A DNA stretch of 64,000 nt from Candidatus Binatus sp. (GTDB lineage: Bacteria > Desulfobacterota > Binatia > Binatales > Binataceae): the NCBI RefSeq assembly GCF_030646925.1, contig NZ_JAUSKL010000067.1, positions 1 through 64,000 of the forward strand, in the 5' to 3' direction. Below, one piece after another: positions 42,696-62,479 of the stretch. The notes under the pieces are model-generated. The model was not told the origin of the DNA, did no database searches, and was given only the letters and a program-made list of their open reading frames with translations. Made by a program: the position numbers and the translations under genes. How positions within the stretch are numbered: the first letter of the stretch is position 1; each line of letters starts with the position of its first letter.

Positions 42696-44174
42696 TCACG
42701 GCGCGATCGAGAACGACCAGGAATACGGCTTGGCGTCGGCGGTGATCGAGACGTTGTACTTGCCGCCTTTCAGGAGCGGGCGGCGCGGGATGACGACGAC
42801 GGCCGCGTAGTTGTTCAGGATGTCGCGGCCGATTTGCTGCACCGCTGTGTCGGGATTCGTGTAGCTCTGCGAATCGAAGCCGCAGGCCTCGAGCGCGACG
42901 CGGCTACCGTCGGCATTTTCCTGCGTCACCGAAAATTCGCCGAGGCGCGCATCCCTGAACTCGCCCATCTGCAGCGTGATCGCGAGCCCGCTCGGTGGCT
43001 CGTAGCCGCTGCAGCTCGAGCGCGGATCGGGCCATTCGTTGCCGAATGATTCCATTTGAATCGTCGAACCGTCGGGTGGAAACGCGAGTGGCCATTTAAT
43101 TGTTACGTTCGGCGGCAGATGCTCGCGCGTGCCATCTTTAAGATTCAAGCCCGCGGCACACGCGCCCGCCTCGCAATACGTGCCGAAGCCGGCGCGCGCG
43201 AGCCGCGGATTGAGCATCGGCATCCGATGGAACGGAATCGCCATCCATCCGTCGATTGTCCAGACGGGCGTTCCGGGCGCCCGCTCCTTCGCCCATCCGG
43301 ACGGATCGGCGGAGCCGCTCGGATCGCTCTCGCGAGCGCCGCCGGGAATGTAATCCGCCTCCATGTCGCTGGCCTGCGCGGCTTCCAGGCCCGCGCTGGT
43401 GAACCACTTGTTGTGGGGATCTTCTTCATGCATCTCCGCGCCGAGGCCGGCGTGCTGGATCGCGTCGGCGTAATTCTTCACGATGTACTTCGCGTGCGCG
43501 CGATCGCCCGCGCTGAGCTTTGGATCCTCGGCGACCGGCGCGAGGTTGAGCATCGCGCGATAGTAATTCAGACGCGCAAGCCACGCCGGCTGATCGGCGA
43601 GCGGGACTGAGGTCGGTTCGGGTTGCGCAACCGCCGTTTCAGGATTCTCGGCAGGCTCGCTCGATGGAGCAATCGGCGGCGTGGGTGAAGTTTTTGACCC
43701 GAGCGATCGCGCCGTCTGCAGGACTTCGTTGCGATAGATCAAGCCTAGAATGCCGGCGGCGAAAACGATCGCGAGCATCGCGACGATGCCCGCGCGGCGA
43801 ATTTTCGAACGCGGAGTTGCGCTCGATGAACCAGAAGCGATCGCAAATGCAAACTTTATCGAACCGAATCTGATTTCGTCGCCGGCGTTCAGCGCGACCG
43901 GGTTCCGGATACGCCGGCCGTTGACAAACGTCCCGTTGGTCGATCCGAGATCCGCGAGATTGAACCGCCCCGCTACGCGCGTGAACTGCGCGTGACGGCG
44001 CGACACGGTCCCGTCGCCGAGCACTATGTCGTTGCTGCGATGACTGCCGACGGAGATTGTCGGCCGGTCGAGCAGGTACTCGCGCGGATTGGCGGCATCG
44101 GTCGAAACCAGCCGGCCCCTGGCAGATACATTGTCGCGAGGAGCGCGCGGCGCCGCGCCATGTTCCGATGCCAT
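42696..44174 (-). CDS. FHA - membrane span - CAP domain protein
   Basis: This 492-residue protein has a cytosolic FHA domain at about 35-110 (RPTISVGSHRSNDIVLGDGT, VSRRHAQF, LADLGSTNGTFVNGRRI). It then has a membrane helix (AGIVAMLAIVFAAGILGLIY), a Pro/Glu-rich linker and an outer CAP/SCP-like domain (WLARLNYYRAMLNLAPVAED, LSAGDRAHAKYIVKNYADAI). FHA domains bind phosphothreonine, so the inside could answer to a Ser/Thr kinase while the outside carries the CAP fold. No kinase is in the window. The last 150 residues after the CAP core are of unknown type. Confidence 0.85.
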   Translation of the reverse strand: MASEHGAAPRAPRDNVSARGRLVSTDAANPREYLLDRPTISVGSHRSNDIVLGDGTVSRRHAQFTRVAGRFNLADLGSTNGTFVNGRRIRNPVALNAGDEIRFGSIKFAFAIASGSSSATPRSKIRRAGIVAMLAIVFAAGILGLIYRNEVLQTARSLGSKTSPTPPIAPSSEPAENPETAVAQPEPTSVPLADQPAWLARLNYYRAMLNLAPVAEDPKLSAGDRAHAKYIVKNYADAIQHAGLGAEMHEEDPHNKWFTSAGLEAAQASDMEADYIPGGARESDPSGSADPSGWAKERAPGTPVWTIDGWMAIPFHRMPMLNPRLARAGFGTYCEAGACAAGLNLKDGTREHLPPNVTIKWPLAFPPDGSTIQMESFGNEWPDPRSSCSGYEPPSGLAITLQMGEFRDARLGEFSVTQENADGSRVALEACGFDSQSYTNPDTAVQQIGRDILNNYAAVVVIPRRPLLKGGKYNVSITADAKPYSWSFSIAP

Positions 44175-44187
44175 CTTGCGTTCGGCG

Positions 44188-45231
44188 TCAGTCGAGATTC
44201 CAGAAGCGTCCGACGTTGTGCGAGGCGCGCTCGATCATCGGCATCACGCCGTCGCCGCCGAGGTGGGTATCGATCGGTTCGTCGGCCTCGCGTCCGAATT
44301 CGTCGATCACGGCGCGTCCCGATTCCGCGATCGCTTCAAGGTCGTAACCGCCCTCGAGCGACGCGGCCATTTTGCCGCCGCAGCATTCAGCCGCAAGCAG
44401 TTTGACCCGCCGCGCCATCGCGGCAAAGCCCGCCTCGGTGACGCGCATCGCGCCGAGCGGATCGCGAAAGTGGCAATCGAAGCCGGCCGACACGAGGATG
44501 AACTCGGGCTTGAATGCGCGCCCGATCGGCATGATCAAACGATCGAACACGCGCAGATATTCGGCGTCGCCCAACTCGGCGAGCATCGGCGCGTTGATGG
44601 TGAACCCGAGCCCGGCGAGTGTGCCGATTTCGTGCAGCGAGCCGGTACCGGGGTAATGCGGAAACTGATGCGCGGAGGCGTAGAGCACCTCGGGCGATTC
44701 GTAAAACATTTCCTGCGTGCCGTTGCCGTGATGCAAATCCCAATCGATGATCATCACGCGCTTCAGGCCGCGCACCTTGATCAGCCATTCGGCGGCGATC
44801 GCGACATTGTTGAAAAAGCAGAAGCCCATCGCGCGATTCGGCAACGCGTGATGCCCCGGCGGACGCACGATCGCGAAGGCATTGTCGGCCGCGCCATCCA
44901 TCACCGCTTCGACCGCGGTCAGCACGCCGCCCGCCGCGAGCAGCGCGGTCTCGTACGACTCGCGCGAAGTATGGGTATCGCGATCGAAGTCGAAGCGGTC
45001 GACCGACGCAGTGCGCTCGACGGCTGCGATGTACTCGGGCCGATGGCATAGGGCGATTTCATCGGGGGTCGCGGCGCGCGGCGTAATAAATTCAAGCTGG
45101 GGACGCTGCAGCGACTCCGCCATGTCGATCATCGCTTCGATCCGCTGGGGACGCTCGGGATGAGCGCGGCCCGCGAAATGTTTGGCGTAGCGGCGGTCCG
45201 TCACGACGGCGGTCTTGAGCATCGTTGACAC
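44188..45231 (-). CDS. Histone deacetylase family protein (acetylpolyamine/acetoin-utilisation type)
   Basis: This 347-residue zinc deacetylase of the HDAC/AcuC/ApaH-like superfamily has the motifs HPERPQRIEAM, AIVRPPGHHALPNRAMGFCF (catalytic His pair), MIIDWDLHHGNGTQEMFYES (zinc Asp and His) and LVSAGFDCHFRDPLGAM (second zinc Asp). The substrate in bacteria may be acetylated proteins, polyamines or other amides and cannot be told here. Two close Met codons (residues 1 and 4) compete as start. It is divergent from tatA/B. Confidence 0.94.
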   Translation of the reverse strand: MSTMLKTAVVTDRRYAKHFAGRAHPERPQRIEAMIDMAESLQRPQLEFITPRAATPDEIALCHRPEYIAAVERTASVDRFDFDRDTHTSRESYETALLAAGGVLTAVEAVMDGAADNAFAIVRPPGHHALPNRAMGFCFFNNVAIAAEWLIKVRGLKRVMIIDWDLHHGNGTQEMFYESPEVLYASAHQFPHYPGTGSLHEIGTLAGLGFTINAPMLAELGDAEYLRVFDRLIMPIGRAFKPEFILVSAGFDCHFRDPLGAMRVTEAGFAAMARRVKLLAAECCGGKMAASLEGGYDLEAIAESGRAVIDEFGREADEPIDTHLGGDGVMPMIERASHNVGRFWNLD

Positions 45232-45303: not shown

Positions 45304-45573
45304 GTGACGCAAAATCGCAAGTTGCCGAATCCATTTGAAATCATCTTGATCCTGGCAGTGGCGCTGATCGTGCTCGGGCCCGAACGGCTGCCGGAGGTCA
45401 TGCGCGCGGCGGGGAAAATCATGCGCGAGCTGCGCCTTGCGAGTAACACCGTGCTGCGCGAAATGTCCGACGTGCTCGACGATGAGCCGATGCGCAAGGC
45501 GCCGCCGAGCGCGGTGACCCGCTCGATCACGCAAGAATCCACTCCTGAAAGTCGCGCGCCCGAGAAACCATAG
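45304..45573 (+). CDS. TatA/TatB family twin-arginine translocase subunit
   Basis: This 89-residue protein has the Tat layout: a short N-terminus, one membrane helix (FEIILILAVALIVLGPERLP, with the hinge Gly-Pro) and an amphipathic helix (EVMRAAGKIMRELRLAS). The tail after the helix is longer than in minimal TatA and fits TatB better, but the split is uncertain. It starts with GTG at 45304 and precedes tatC by 15 bases, so the two form one operon. Confidence 0.9.
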   Translation: MTQNRKLPNPFEIILILAVALIVLGPERLPEVMRAAGKIMRELRLASNTVLREMSDVLDDEPMRKAPPSAVTRSITQESTPESRAPEKP

Positions 45574-45588
45574 CCAGCATCGCGCATC

Positions 45589-46401
45589 GTGACTAGCGAG
45601 GATATCACACCGCCGGCGCCCACTCCTCTGGCACGCGAAGAGGCGCGGATGTCGCTGATCGAGCACCTGCAGGAGCTGCGGACGCATCTGATTCGCGCAT
45701 TCATCGCGATCGGGATCGGCTTCGCAATCGCATACGCGATCGCCGACCCGCTGTTTCATGCGTTGACGTGGCCGATTCGCGAAGTCTCGGGCGGCAAGGT
45801 GATGCTGATCGGCACCGGCGTGGGCGAGGCGTTCTACACCAAGATCAAGGTGGCGTTGATCGCCGGCTTGTTCATCGCGAGTCCGGCGGTATTTTACGAA
45901 ATCTGGAAGTTCATCGCGCCGGGCCTGTACGAAACCGAACGCAGGATGGCGAAGCCGTTCGTGATTTTCGCGACGCTTTTTTTCGCACTCGGTGGATACT
46001 TCTGCTGGGCGGTGGTTTTCAAAATCGGCTACGCGTTTTTCCTCGGCCAGTACGCGAGTATCGGCGTCACGCCGACGATTCGCATCAGCGAGTACCTGGC
46101 GTTCTCGTCCAAGCTGCTGCTCGCGTTCGCGCTCACCTTCGAGATGCCGATTTTTGCATTTTTCCTCACCAAGCTCGGGCTGGTCGATTACAAAATGATG
46201 ATCGGATACATCCGCTACGCGATTCTTGCGATTTTTATCGTGGCCGCCGCCTTGACGCCGCCGGACATGATCTCGCAATTCTTGCTGGCGATACCGCTGT
46301 TGATTCTCTACGCGCTGAGCATCGGCGTCGCGTGGGCGTTTCGGCTGAAGCCCGAGGAAAAAATCGCTGCCGCAACGCCCGACAATACTGAGACCATCTG
46401 A
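45589..46401 (+). CDS. tatC: Sec-independent translocase TatC
   Basis: TatC is the receptor for twin-arginine signal peptides in the inner membrane. The 270-residue protein has the cytosolic start MSLIEHLQELRTHLIRAFIA and the conserved FYTKIKVALIAGLFIASPAV. It also has FIAPGLYETERRMAKPFVI and six membrane segments ending at LLILYALSIGVAWAF. It starts with GTG at 45589. Together with the upstream TatA/B gene it gives a minimal two-gene Tat system here. Confidence 0.96.
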   Translation: MTSEDITPPAPTPLAREEARMSLIEHLQELRTHLIRAFIAIGIGFAIAYAIADPLFHALTWPIREVSGGKVMLIGTGVGEAFYTKIKVALIAGLFIASPAVFYEIWKFIAPGLYETERRMAKPFVIFATLFFALGGYFCWAVVFKIGYAFFLGQYASIGVTPTIRISEYLAFSSKLLLAFALTFEMPIFAFFLTKLGLVDYKMMIGYIRYAILAIFIVAAALTPPDMISQFLLAIPLLILYALSIGVAWAFRLKPEEKIAAATPDNTETI

Positions 46402-49097: not shown

Positions 49098-49976
49098 ATG
49101 GCGCTGCCGCGAATCTCATTCGTAACCGGCAAAGGCGGCACCGGCAAGAGCACGGTCGCGGCGGCGCTGGCGATCGCACTCTCGCGCCATCGGCCGACGA
49201 CGCTCGCGGATTTGGATGGGCGATTGTCCGCGGCTGAACTGCTGGGCGCGCATCCCAACGGATCGACGCCGATCAAAGTGAGCGATTCGCTCGAGGTGAT
49301 CGCGCTGTCGGCGCGCGCCGAACTCGAAGCATTCATCGAGCGAATCGTGCCGGTGCGGATGATCTCGCGCCGGATGCTCAAAAGCCGCACCTTCGGCTAC
49401 GTGACCGCGGCGCTGCCGGGACTCGAGGCGTTTCTGCTGCTCGAAAGATCGAGAATGCTTGCCGGCGACGCCGCGCTGCGTGATCGATACGTCGTAATCG
49501 ACGCGCCCGCGTCGGGCAGCGCGCTCGAACTGCTGTCGGTCGCGTCGGGGGTGAAGAGTATTGCGCCGACGGGAACCTTAAATCGCCTCGCCGATTCGGT
49601 CAGCGTGTTGCTCCGCGACGCGACGCGATTCGGCGCGATCGTCACCGCGTCACCCGAGGAATTGGCGATTCGCGAGGCGCTCGAAACCGCCAAGGCAATT
49701 CAGGACGCCGGCATCGCGGCGATCGCGGCGCTGATGAATCGAGTGCCTGATGCGATGTTCACCACGGCCGAGCTGGCGGCGCTCAGTCCGGCGGGCGGCA
49801 ACGCGCAGCTCGCCGTGATGCGCAAGGCGGCGCGCGAGCGCGGTCTGATCGGCGCACGCAGGCTCGCCAATGCGGGCCTCGAAACGATTCTGCTGCCGAT
49901 GCTGTTCACGCCGGCGATCGGTTTTGCCGAACTGTCGGAAATCGCGGACGTACTCGAAGCGGAGTTGCTCGACTGA
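49098..49976 (+). CDS. ArsA/Get3-like ATPase, first of a pair
   Basis: This 292-residue deviant-Walker ATPase begins at once with ISFVTGKGGTGKSTVAAALA, then TTLADLDGRLSAAELLGA and YVVIDAPASGSALELL. The lysine in GKGGTGKS defines the ArsA/ParA/Get3 group. The IDAPASG motif resembles the DAPATGH switch of ArsA. Its stop overlaps the start of the second ATPase (TGATG at 49974-49978), so the two are likely translated together and may form a heterodimer. No arsenic genes are nearby. Confidence 0.88.
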   Translation: MALPRISFVTGKGGTGKSTVAAALAIALSRHRPTTLADLDGRLSAAELLGAHPNGSTPIKVSDSLEVIALSARAELEAFIERIVPVRMISRRMLKSRTFGYVTAALPGLEAFLLLERSRMLAGDAALRDRYVVIDAPASGSALELLSVASGVKSIAPTGTLNRLADSVSVLLRDATRFGAIVTASPEELAIREALETAKAIQDAGIAAIAALMNRVPDAMFTTAELAALSPAGGNAQLAVMRKAARERGLIGARRLANAGLETILLPMLFTPAIGFAELSEIADVLEAELLD

Positions 49977-51097
49977 TGAATCGAGCGCCCACCGACGCGA
50001 TCTCGCCAACAGATTCGCGCAGCCTCGTCGTATGCCTGGGGCCGGGCGGCGTCGGCAAAACCACGATCAGCGCGGCACTCGCGGTACACGCAGCAATCGC
50101 GGGACGCACCGTTGACGTGATGACCGTCGATCCCGCGCCGCGGCTGCTCGACGCGCTGGGAATCGATCTCGCCTCGACTGAGCCGCGCGAAGTTCCGCTC
50201 GACGGCGTCCGCGGTGCGCGCGCGTCGAGGAACAGTCGCGCGCGGCTGCGCGCGCTCAAGCTCGACCCGAAGCGCACCTTCGACGCGATCATCGCGCGTT
50301 ATGCATCTTCCGATCGAGCGCGCGACCTCATTCTCGAAAATCGGATTTATCGCAATCTGTCGGGTGCGCTCGCGGGCGTCGGCGATTACATGGCGATGGA
50401 GAAACTGCTCGAACTCAGCGACGAGCCCGCGACCGATCTCGTCGTGCTCGACACTCCGCCCGCGGCCGAGGCGATCGACTTCCTCGACGCGCCGCGCCGC
50501 CTGCTCGAACTGCTGAACTCGCGCGCGGTAACGCTGCTGAGCGCGCCGGCGGGAATCATCCGCAGCCAGCTTCGGCTTGCAGACATCGCGGCGCGCGCGG
50601 TGCTCACGGCATTCGATCGCGTGACGGGACTCAAGCTGCTCGCGGACATCCAGGCGTTCGTGCGCAGTTTCGACGGCCTGTACGAGGGCTTTGCGGCGCG
50701 GGCGGCGCGGGCGCAGGAAAAGTTGCGCGCGGCGAACACTGGAATCGTGATGGTCACGACGGCGGAAGCGGGGCGCGTCGCGCAGGCGCGCGATTTTATC
50801 GCGGCGCTCGATCGCGCGGGTCTCAAAGTTTCCGCGATGATCGTCAATCGCGTGATGCCCGATCTGCCCGACGCTTCCGAATTCGCTTCGGCCAAAATTT
50901 CGGCGGCGCTGAAGCGCAAGCTCAGGCAAAATCTCGCCGACTACGCCGCGCTCAAAAAACGCCAGGACATCTCGCTCGAGATGCTGCGCGATGCGCTTCC
51001 ATCGGATACCGCCTTGATGGTCGCGCCGGAACTCGGCCGCGAGCCGCGCACACTTTCGGACCTGGCCGCGATCGGCCGCGGTCTGAAATCGGAATGA
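49976..51097 (+). CDS. ArsA/Get3-like ATPase, second of a pair
   Basis: This 373-residue partner ATPase has the P-loop VVCLGPGGVGKTTISAALAV, VDVMTVDPAPRLLDALGID and the switch DLVVLDTPPAAEAIDFLDAP. The middle contains the helical insert (YRNLSGALAGVGDYMAMEKL) usual in this group. The first lysine of the deviant Walker motif is replaced (GPGGVGKT), which also occurs in paired ArsA-like proteins. Its partner overlaps upstream; a helical protein of unknown role follows on the other strand. Confidence 0.88.
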   Translation: MNRAPTDAISPTDSRSLVVCLGPGGVGKTTISAALAVHAAIAGRTVDVMTVDPAPRLLDALGIDLASTEPREVPLDGVRGARASRNSRARLRALKLDPKRTFDAIIARYASSDRARDLILENRIYRNLSGALAGVGDYMAMEKLLELSDEPATDLVVLDTPPAAEAIDFLDAPRRLLELLNSRAVTLLSAPAGIIRSQLRLADIAARAVLTAFDRVTGLKLLADIQAFVRSFDGLYEGFAARAARAQEKLRAANTGIVMVTTAEAGRVAQARDFIAALDRAGLKVSAMIVNRVMPDLPDASEFASAKISAALKRKLRQNLADYAALKKRQDISLEMLRDALPSDTALMVAPELGREPRTLSDLAAIGRGLKSE

Positions 51098-61870: not shown

Positions 61871-62479
61871 ATGAGCGGTAAATCAGCCACCCGCCGACGT
61901 CCGTCGCGTGCGCCGCACGGTCCTGCCAAAGTCATCCGCATCCCAACGCCCAAAGTCGTCAAACGCCGCCGTGCGATCAGGGCTGGTTTCGGCCTTCTCA
62001 TTCTATCACTGATAGGGGCGATTCTCGCGCGGCTTTATTGGACGCGGACCGCGCCGCCGACGCCCGAAAAAGTCTCGGGCCTTTCCGAACAGGAATCCGA
62101 AATTCTGGGCCTGGTGAATGAGGAGCGCGCGCGGGCCGGACAGCAACCGCTGAAATTCTCGCCACGGCTCGCCGTGATCGCGCGCGGCCACAGCTACGAC
62201 ATGGCGATGCGCCATTATCTTGCGCATGAAAGCCCCGAAGGAGTCGCGCCCGCCGATCGAATCGCTGGCGTCGGAATCGGCTACCACGCAGTCGGCGAAA
62301 ACATCTACATGGACGACTATGGCGATCCGAACGCCGTGCCGACGCACGCGATGCGCCGATGGCTCGGCAGTCCGGCGCATCAGGCGAACCTGCTGTCGGG
62401 GAAATTTACCGAAACCGGCGTCGGCATCGCCCACGCGTCGGACGGCAGCACCTACGTCACGCAAGATTTCGTCCGCTGA
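61871..62479 (+). CDS. Membrane-anchored CAP-domain protein
   Basis: This 202-residue protein has a basic N-terminus, one membrane helix (FGLLILSLIGAILARLYW) and an outer CAP/SCP domain. The domain shows EILGLVNEERARAGQQPLKF, RGHSYDMAMRHYLAHESPEG, VGENIYM and WLGSPAHQANLLSGKFTETG. Family roles in bacteria are mostly unknown. A second CAP domain lies in the FHA protein at 42696. It is followed 23 bases on by the methyltransferase gene. Confidence 0.9.
   Translation: MSGKSATRRRPSRAPHGPAKVIRIPTPKVVKRRRAIRAGFGLLILSLIGAILARLYWTRTAPPTPEKVSGLSEQESEILGLVNEERARAGQQPLKFSPRLAVIARGHSYDMAMRHYLAHESPEGVAPADRIAGVGIGYHAVGENIYMDDYGDPNAVPTHAMRRWLGSPAHQANLLSGKFTETGVGIAHASDGSTYVTQDFVR

Follow-up and report, generated by a model that had tools for sequence, protein, structure and literature searches.

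FHA domains are usually taken as phosphothreonine readers. The actinobacterial proteins OdhI and GarA, soluble regulators and the closest solved relatives in sequence and fold of the FHA domain described here, keep the arginine of the phosphate site, whereas our protein has serine in its place. In proteins of the YscD/SctD type, an FHA-like cytosolic domain (Yop-YscD_cpl) also stands ahead of a membrane helix, but the periplasm holds a secretion-ring domain where ours has a CAP and an Ig-like domain. Proteins of the YkwD type, GAPR-1 and PR-1 share with it the CAP fold (Pfam CAP over cut-off), to which it adds an Ig/CopC-like domain and an FHA–transmembrane (TM) part. The nearest precedent is EssC, the type VII secretion ATPase of Bacillota, likewise a membrane protein, whose FHA domains, according to the accessible parts of two reports, lack a phosphothreonine site and have the EssB pseudokinase as partner, a contact that presumably needs no phosphorylation (PMC11217815; PMC9436818). 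Unlike our protein, EssC is an ATPase, has two FHA domains and lacks CAP; in a general Pfam scan, none of the neighbours scanned was identified as a type VII secretion gene.

The protein compared here with these systems (FHA–CAP protein) is encoded in a 64,000-nucleotide stretch of a Candidatus Binatus contig, referred to as the window (Table 1). No FHA–CAP/SCP fusion was found reported in the literature searched, and the architecture is best called a new combination of known parts.

Table 1. Features of the FHA–CAP locus and related genes (window positions unless a locus is given)
Feature	Position	Strand	Basis and remarks
FHA–TM–CAP–Ig-like protein	42696..44174	-	492 aa; ATG at 44174, stop ends at 42696 (stop included)
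FHA domain, residues 28-112	43839..44093	-	Pfam; nearest solved folds OdhI, GarA, EmbR, Z 18-19
Ser44, at the place of the 'GR' phosphate-binding arginine	44043..44045	-	Alignment to OdhI/GarA; Arg in 0/34 main-type relatives
Transmembrane segment, residues 128-146 (model helix 127-155)	43737..43793	-	Hydropathy; AlphaFold2 model
CAP/SCP domain, residues 199-340, with H249, E251, H316, Cys334/Cys339	43155..43580	-	Pfam, model, fold match, conservation
C-terminal Ig/CopC-like beta-sandwich (modelled), residues 359-492, with invariant Cys388/Cys431	42699..43100	-	Model; fold match; cysteine conservation
Histone-deacetylase-family hydrolase gene	44188..45231	-	Directly upstream, 13 bases between frames; Pfam
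Divergent tatA and tatC genes	45304..46401	+	Pfam; synteny
Canonical YkwD-like membrane-anchored CAP protein	61871..62479	+	202 aa; CAP E 1.7e-19
FHA–TM–redoxin fusions in relatives	L014:2858-4147:+; L010:216-1412:-; L087:892-2046:-; L088:630-1820:-		

Domain layout and membrane topology

Pfam with curated cut-offs placed the FHA match at residues 40-104 (E 5.4e-22; 78.4 bits against a cut-off of 20.7) and the CAP match at residues 199-335 (E 4.1e-6; 28.1 bits against 21.1); Yop-YscD_cpl also matched (E 3.9e-16). The frame is not a product of chance: a search of 38 genomes, among them the window's own, matched the protein in 33, in many of these by FHA only, and 19 loci encode all four parts. 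These were aligned as 17 members, L010 and L019 being left out for a stop inside the matched stretch. For the whole protein, AlphaFold2 (17-row alignment; mean pLDDT 76.5, pTM 0.58) gave a confident FHA beta-sandwich and a confident outer part, with a disordered, Pro/Ala-rich linker between membrane helix and CAP domain; the helix itself is of low confidence. Structure comparison of the model with EmbR gave Z 18.8 (rmsd 2.1, 100 residues aligned). Pfam, the model and the 19 loci thus bear out the sequence-only reading insofar as it had joined an FHA domain, a membrane segment and a CAP domain in one frame; it gave no strand and overlooked the C-terminal domain.

The hydrophobic segment has a mean Kyte-Doolittle value of 2.65. 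Of 44 family frames, 39 have more Lys and Arg N-terminal to it, two show the opposite and three are tied. Some of these frames overlap as fragments of a single gene, the hydrophobic peak is weak in five, and one (L016) was scored on a linker stretch in place of the membrane helix. Hydropathy and charge support a predicted topology with the N-terminus inside, the FHA domain cytosolic and the CAP domain outside, the arrangement proposed before, and the model has a helix at this place. Tat export, considered in view of the tatA/tatC neighbours, was dropped, the twin-arginine-like 'RR' before the helix not being conserved in relatives.

The outer part

Modelled alone (residues 190-492; 48-row alignment), the outer part reached a pLDDT of 91.0 and a pTM of 0.89. 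In fold searches, its CAP domain resembled 4ifa (Z 8.3, rmsd 2.6, 109 aligned) and GAPR-1 (Z 8.3 for 5vhg, 8.2 for 1smb). Of 49 computed stretches, the outer-part alignment comprises 48, without L083 and with L003 entered as the window's own stretch; among these, H249 is kept in 45, E251 in all 48 and H316 in 47; Cys388/Cys431 are invariant (48/48), and Cys334/Cys339 are mostly kept (38/48). Because two His and two Glu line the cavity and bind metal in other CAP proteins, as the available portion of one source has it (PMC10189770), the conservation of H249, E251 and H316 suggests by analogy that the cavity may still bind metal. The second cavity Glu was not placed: the MAFFT alignment with the window's second CAP protein is unreliable there, and hhalign was weak (probability 13.6). 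The Glu of the CAP 'GEN' motif presumably has no clear counterpart in this domain.

The C-terminal domain was matched best to PcoC of the CopC/PcoC group (Z 9.8, rmsd 2.0, 90 aligned). The Ig domains of L,D-transpeptidases came just after (Z 8.5), and the claim is therefore limited to the fold, which is, in the model, Ig/CopC-like. A reading as a CopC-type copper-binding domain was dropped, its support being the fold. The CAP–Ig sequence had no match among solved structures at E 0.1.

Distribution in the family and a second type

FHA and CAP occur in one frame in 35 of the 41 genomes of the window's own family, as read from the table with two loci checked (L092, L117). The six others (G008, G010, G058, G063, G064 and G065) include some in which the locus is at a contig end or consists of CAP–Ig alone. 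A profile of the 17 members was searched against 148 genomes of the class; outside the family, matches better than 1e-30 came from G027, G031, G069 and G070, with no FHA in any fetched locus. Among 395 genomes of the phylum, matches outside the family at or below 1e-30 (G031 and three genomes of family f37) all comprised the CAP–Ig part only. A contig search with the single protein added two distant loci, one CAP–Ig (from a Chloroflexi MAG) and one FHA-only. The domain order, which had been proposed as a search target, was thus found throughout most of the family and in none of the 148 class and 395 phylum genomes outside it. Within the genomes searched, which are part of the known bacteria, FHA–TM–CAP–Ig is a conserved, family-specific architecture. 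CAP–Ig proteins devoid of FHA are present within the family and outside it (L076-L086). One distant relative (L125, G167:C1) has a frame of 2434 aa, with CAP–Ig followed by apparently repeated Ig-like stretches.

Eight genomes (G001, G002, G003, G006, G015, G022, G057 and G068) carry a second type of FHA–CAP protein, which the window's genome lacks. All eight proteins have lost Ser58-Arg59 and Asn80 and kept the FHA–TM–CAP–Ig layout; three have Arg at position 44. Their FHA domains group together in a FastTree tree of this one short domain (support values not read). Since this type has the same architecture without these residues, the module is retained without a phosphothreonine site.

In all eight, the FHA–CAP gene adjoins one that encodes a small lipoprotein, in many cases with 'SVGLPG(L/V)P'. 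G008 has this lipoprotein stretch in fusion with a CAP–Ig protein (E 8e-6), and G027, which belongs to another family, has it in fusion with part of a CAP domain (E 2e-6); by the Rosetta-stone argument, this points to a putative partnership of lipoprotein and CAP–Ig in the periplasm. The lipoprotein at L028:8754-9221:+ and its relatives had no Pfam or NCBIfam match. The window's genome has, on a contig other than the window's, a broken remnant of the lipoprotein gene (L120:2067-2545, G000:C53), with no FHA–CAP gene beside it.

Genomic neighbourhood

Only 10 of 20 regions have the deacetylase-family neighbour, and a conserved operon was rejected on this count. Neighbours in the other regions are common to pairs only, for example a DUF882/M15 peptidase (Pfam, one of two copies scanned); across the 20 regions the context is not uniform, and no partner gene was found. 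The window also holds two adjacent genes for ArsA-like ATPases (49098-51097; the first scanned with Pfam), which several relatives also keep close to GH15 and tatC. The second anchored CAP protein, which the sequence-only reading had rightly noted, is covered in its CAP region by the NCBIfam model of DalA, the divisome-associated lipoprotein of Rhodobacterales. DalA differs in being an outer-membrane lipoprotein, by the part of the source available (PMC10470522), and is related to the FHA–CAP protein through the CAP fold only. In six genomes (G000, G003, G012, G053, G054 and G055), some 15-19 kb separate the FHA–CAP gene from a strong CAP match on the same contig.

An FHA domain without the phosphate-gripping arginine

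When the protein is aligned to OdhI, VGSHRSND stands against AGRHPESD, with Ser44 opposite the arginine. Among 34 deduplicated main-type proteins from 33 genomes, position 44 is Ser in 27, Thr in three, Ala in three, Tyr in one and Arg in none. The rest of the signature, Ser58, Arg59, His61, Asn80 and Gly81 (the SRxH and NG motifs), is kept in 34/34. Elsewhere in the window's genome, five further FHA domains (two on contig C7, one on C109, two on C58) all retain GR when inspected by eye; that of L045_6625 reads LVGRWD, the 'S' in the FHA table being a misalignment.

We consider it about an even bet (probability roughly 0.5) that the FHA–CAP protein is a bitopic, N-in protein of the inner membrane, in which the altered FHA domain acts as an anchor that docks or oligomerises independently of phosphate. 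A folded FHA domain devoid of the phosphate-gripping arginine would lie in the cytosol, a single helix would span the membrane, and the Pro/Ala-rich linker would carry the CAP and Ig-like domains into the periplasm, where some component of the envelope would be their target or their attachment point. The analysis shows the gene, its domains, the topology as far as charge bias tells it, and the altered FHA signature with its conservation; that the FHA domain docks, what it docks to and what the outer part does in the envelope are what we infer here. In favour of docking we count the replaced arginine next to GR-keeping FHA domains in the same genome, the second type, the redoxin fusions described below, the charge bias and the EssC precedent. 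Against docking speaks that the main type keeps every other tabulated residue of the phosphothreonine signature, which is unexpected under pure loss of function and would be compatible with a changed ligand or with phosphate being bound weakly; so do the arginine at position 44 in part of the second type, the lack of a partner and the varying neighbourhood.

The FHA–TM stretch is not confined to CAP proteins. In four of the 41 family genomes (G008, G014, G021 and G068), it is joined to a TlpA/ResA-like redoxin (AhpC-TSA, E 8e-23 to 1e-29), with Ser at the arginine place in all four, and in G014 and G021 the fusion gene directly adjoins the FHA–CAP gene. Possibly, and we put this forward tentatively, the family has a transmembrane adaptor of its own: an FHA domain of the GS type, with the arginine replaced and the rest of the pocket kept, would be set on CAP–Ig or on a redoxin and place these envelope enzymes by a phosphate-independent contact.

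The sequence-only reading had the FHA domain read Ser/Thr kinase signals, in inside-out signalling or in a phospho-controlled surface protein. Its membrane-spanning layout stands; its phosphorylation part is weakened by the lost arginine and the lack of a linked kinase. In the form that we weighed, a kinase makes a phosphothreonine partner, FHA binds it via Arg59 and Asn80, and this state is relayed to CAP. The fold is nearest to OdhI, GarA and EmbR, the genome has seven Pkinase matches, and a contact of Arg59 with phosphate or with an acidic peptide is still conceivable. In the structure of DgcB, as given in the accessible part of the report (PMC6733907), R61, K72 and R76 converge on the phosphothreonine, so one lost arginine need not remove every contact, a comparison that is not residue-by-residue. 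On the other side, the conserved arginine is described, in the available part of one source, as critical for phosphothreonine recognition, its substitution abolishing FHA-dependent interactions (PMC11326605), and it is replaced in every main-type protein; the second type has lost most of the site. Loss of the binding residues, named beforehand as evidence against the proposal, is partial: the key arginine is gone, and because the five other residues remain, phosphothreonine reading is not fully refuted. The window's contig is free of Pkinase matches, and a linked Ser/Thr kinase, which had been suggested as a check, was accordingly rejected; the seven matches (one under the family cut-off) are on contigs C7, C21, C58, C88 and C109, and the kinase genes on C7 and C58 are accompanied by GR-keeping FHA domains of their own. 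The phosphothreonine interpretation is thus weak, and phospho-control of this protein unlikely. The locus L045 (G000:C58:80000-88500) combines two FHA domains that keep GR with proteins resembling kinases, a stretch resembling a phosphatase and a frame resembling vWA, these names being assigned by reading; this cluster is the likelier home of phosphothreonine signalling in the window's genome.

That the pocket binds something else, namely a peptide that is acidic or unphosphorylated, with modification of Ser44 as a possible switch, strikes us as rather doubtful. Ser, Thr or Ala at position 44 in 33 of 34 proteins, next to an otherwise intact pocket, resembles a change of specificity and not decay, but this conservation pattern is the sole basis, and the Tyr and the three Ala do not fit a switch at Ser44. 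A passive fold that merely fixes topology and anchors the CAP module would agree with the strongly eroded, still present FHA domains of the second type and with the CAP–Ig proteins devoid of FHA, and is very improbable against the strict conservation of the SRxH and NG residues in the main type across 33 genomes.

A whole family in which the FHA fold and most of its pocket are retained, the key arginine is gone, and outer CAP or redoxin domains are anchored in this way would be a natural test of what FHA domains are capable of without phosphate. Annotating such proteins as readers of kinase signals from the Pfam name alone is unsafe.
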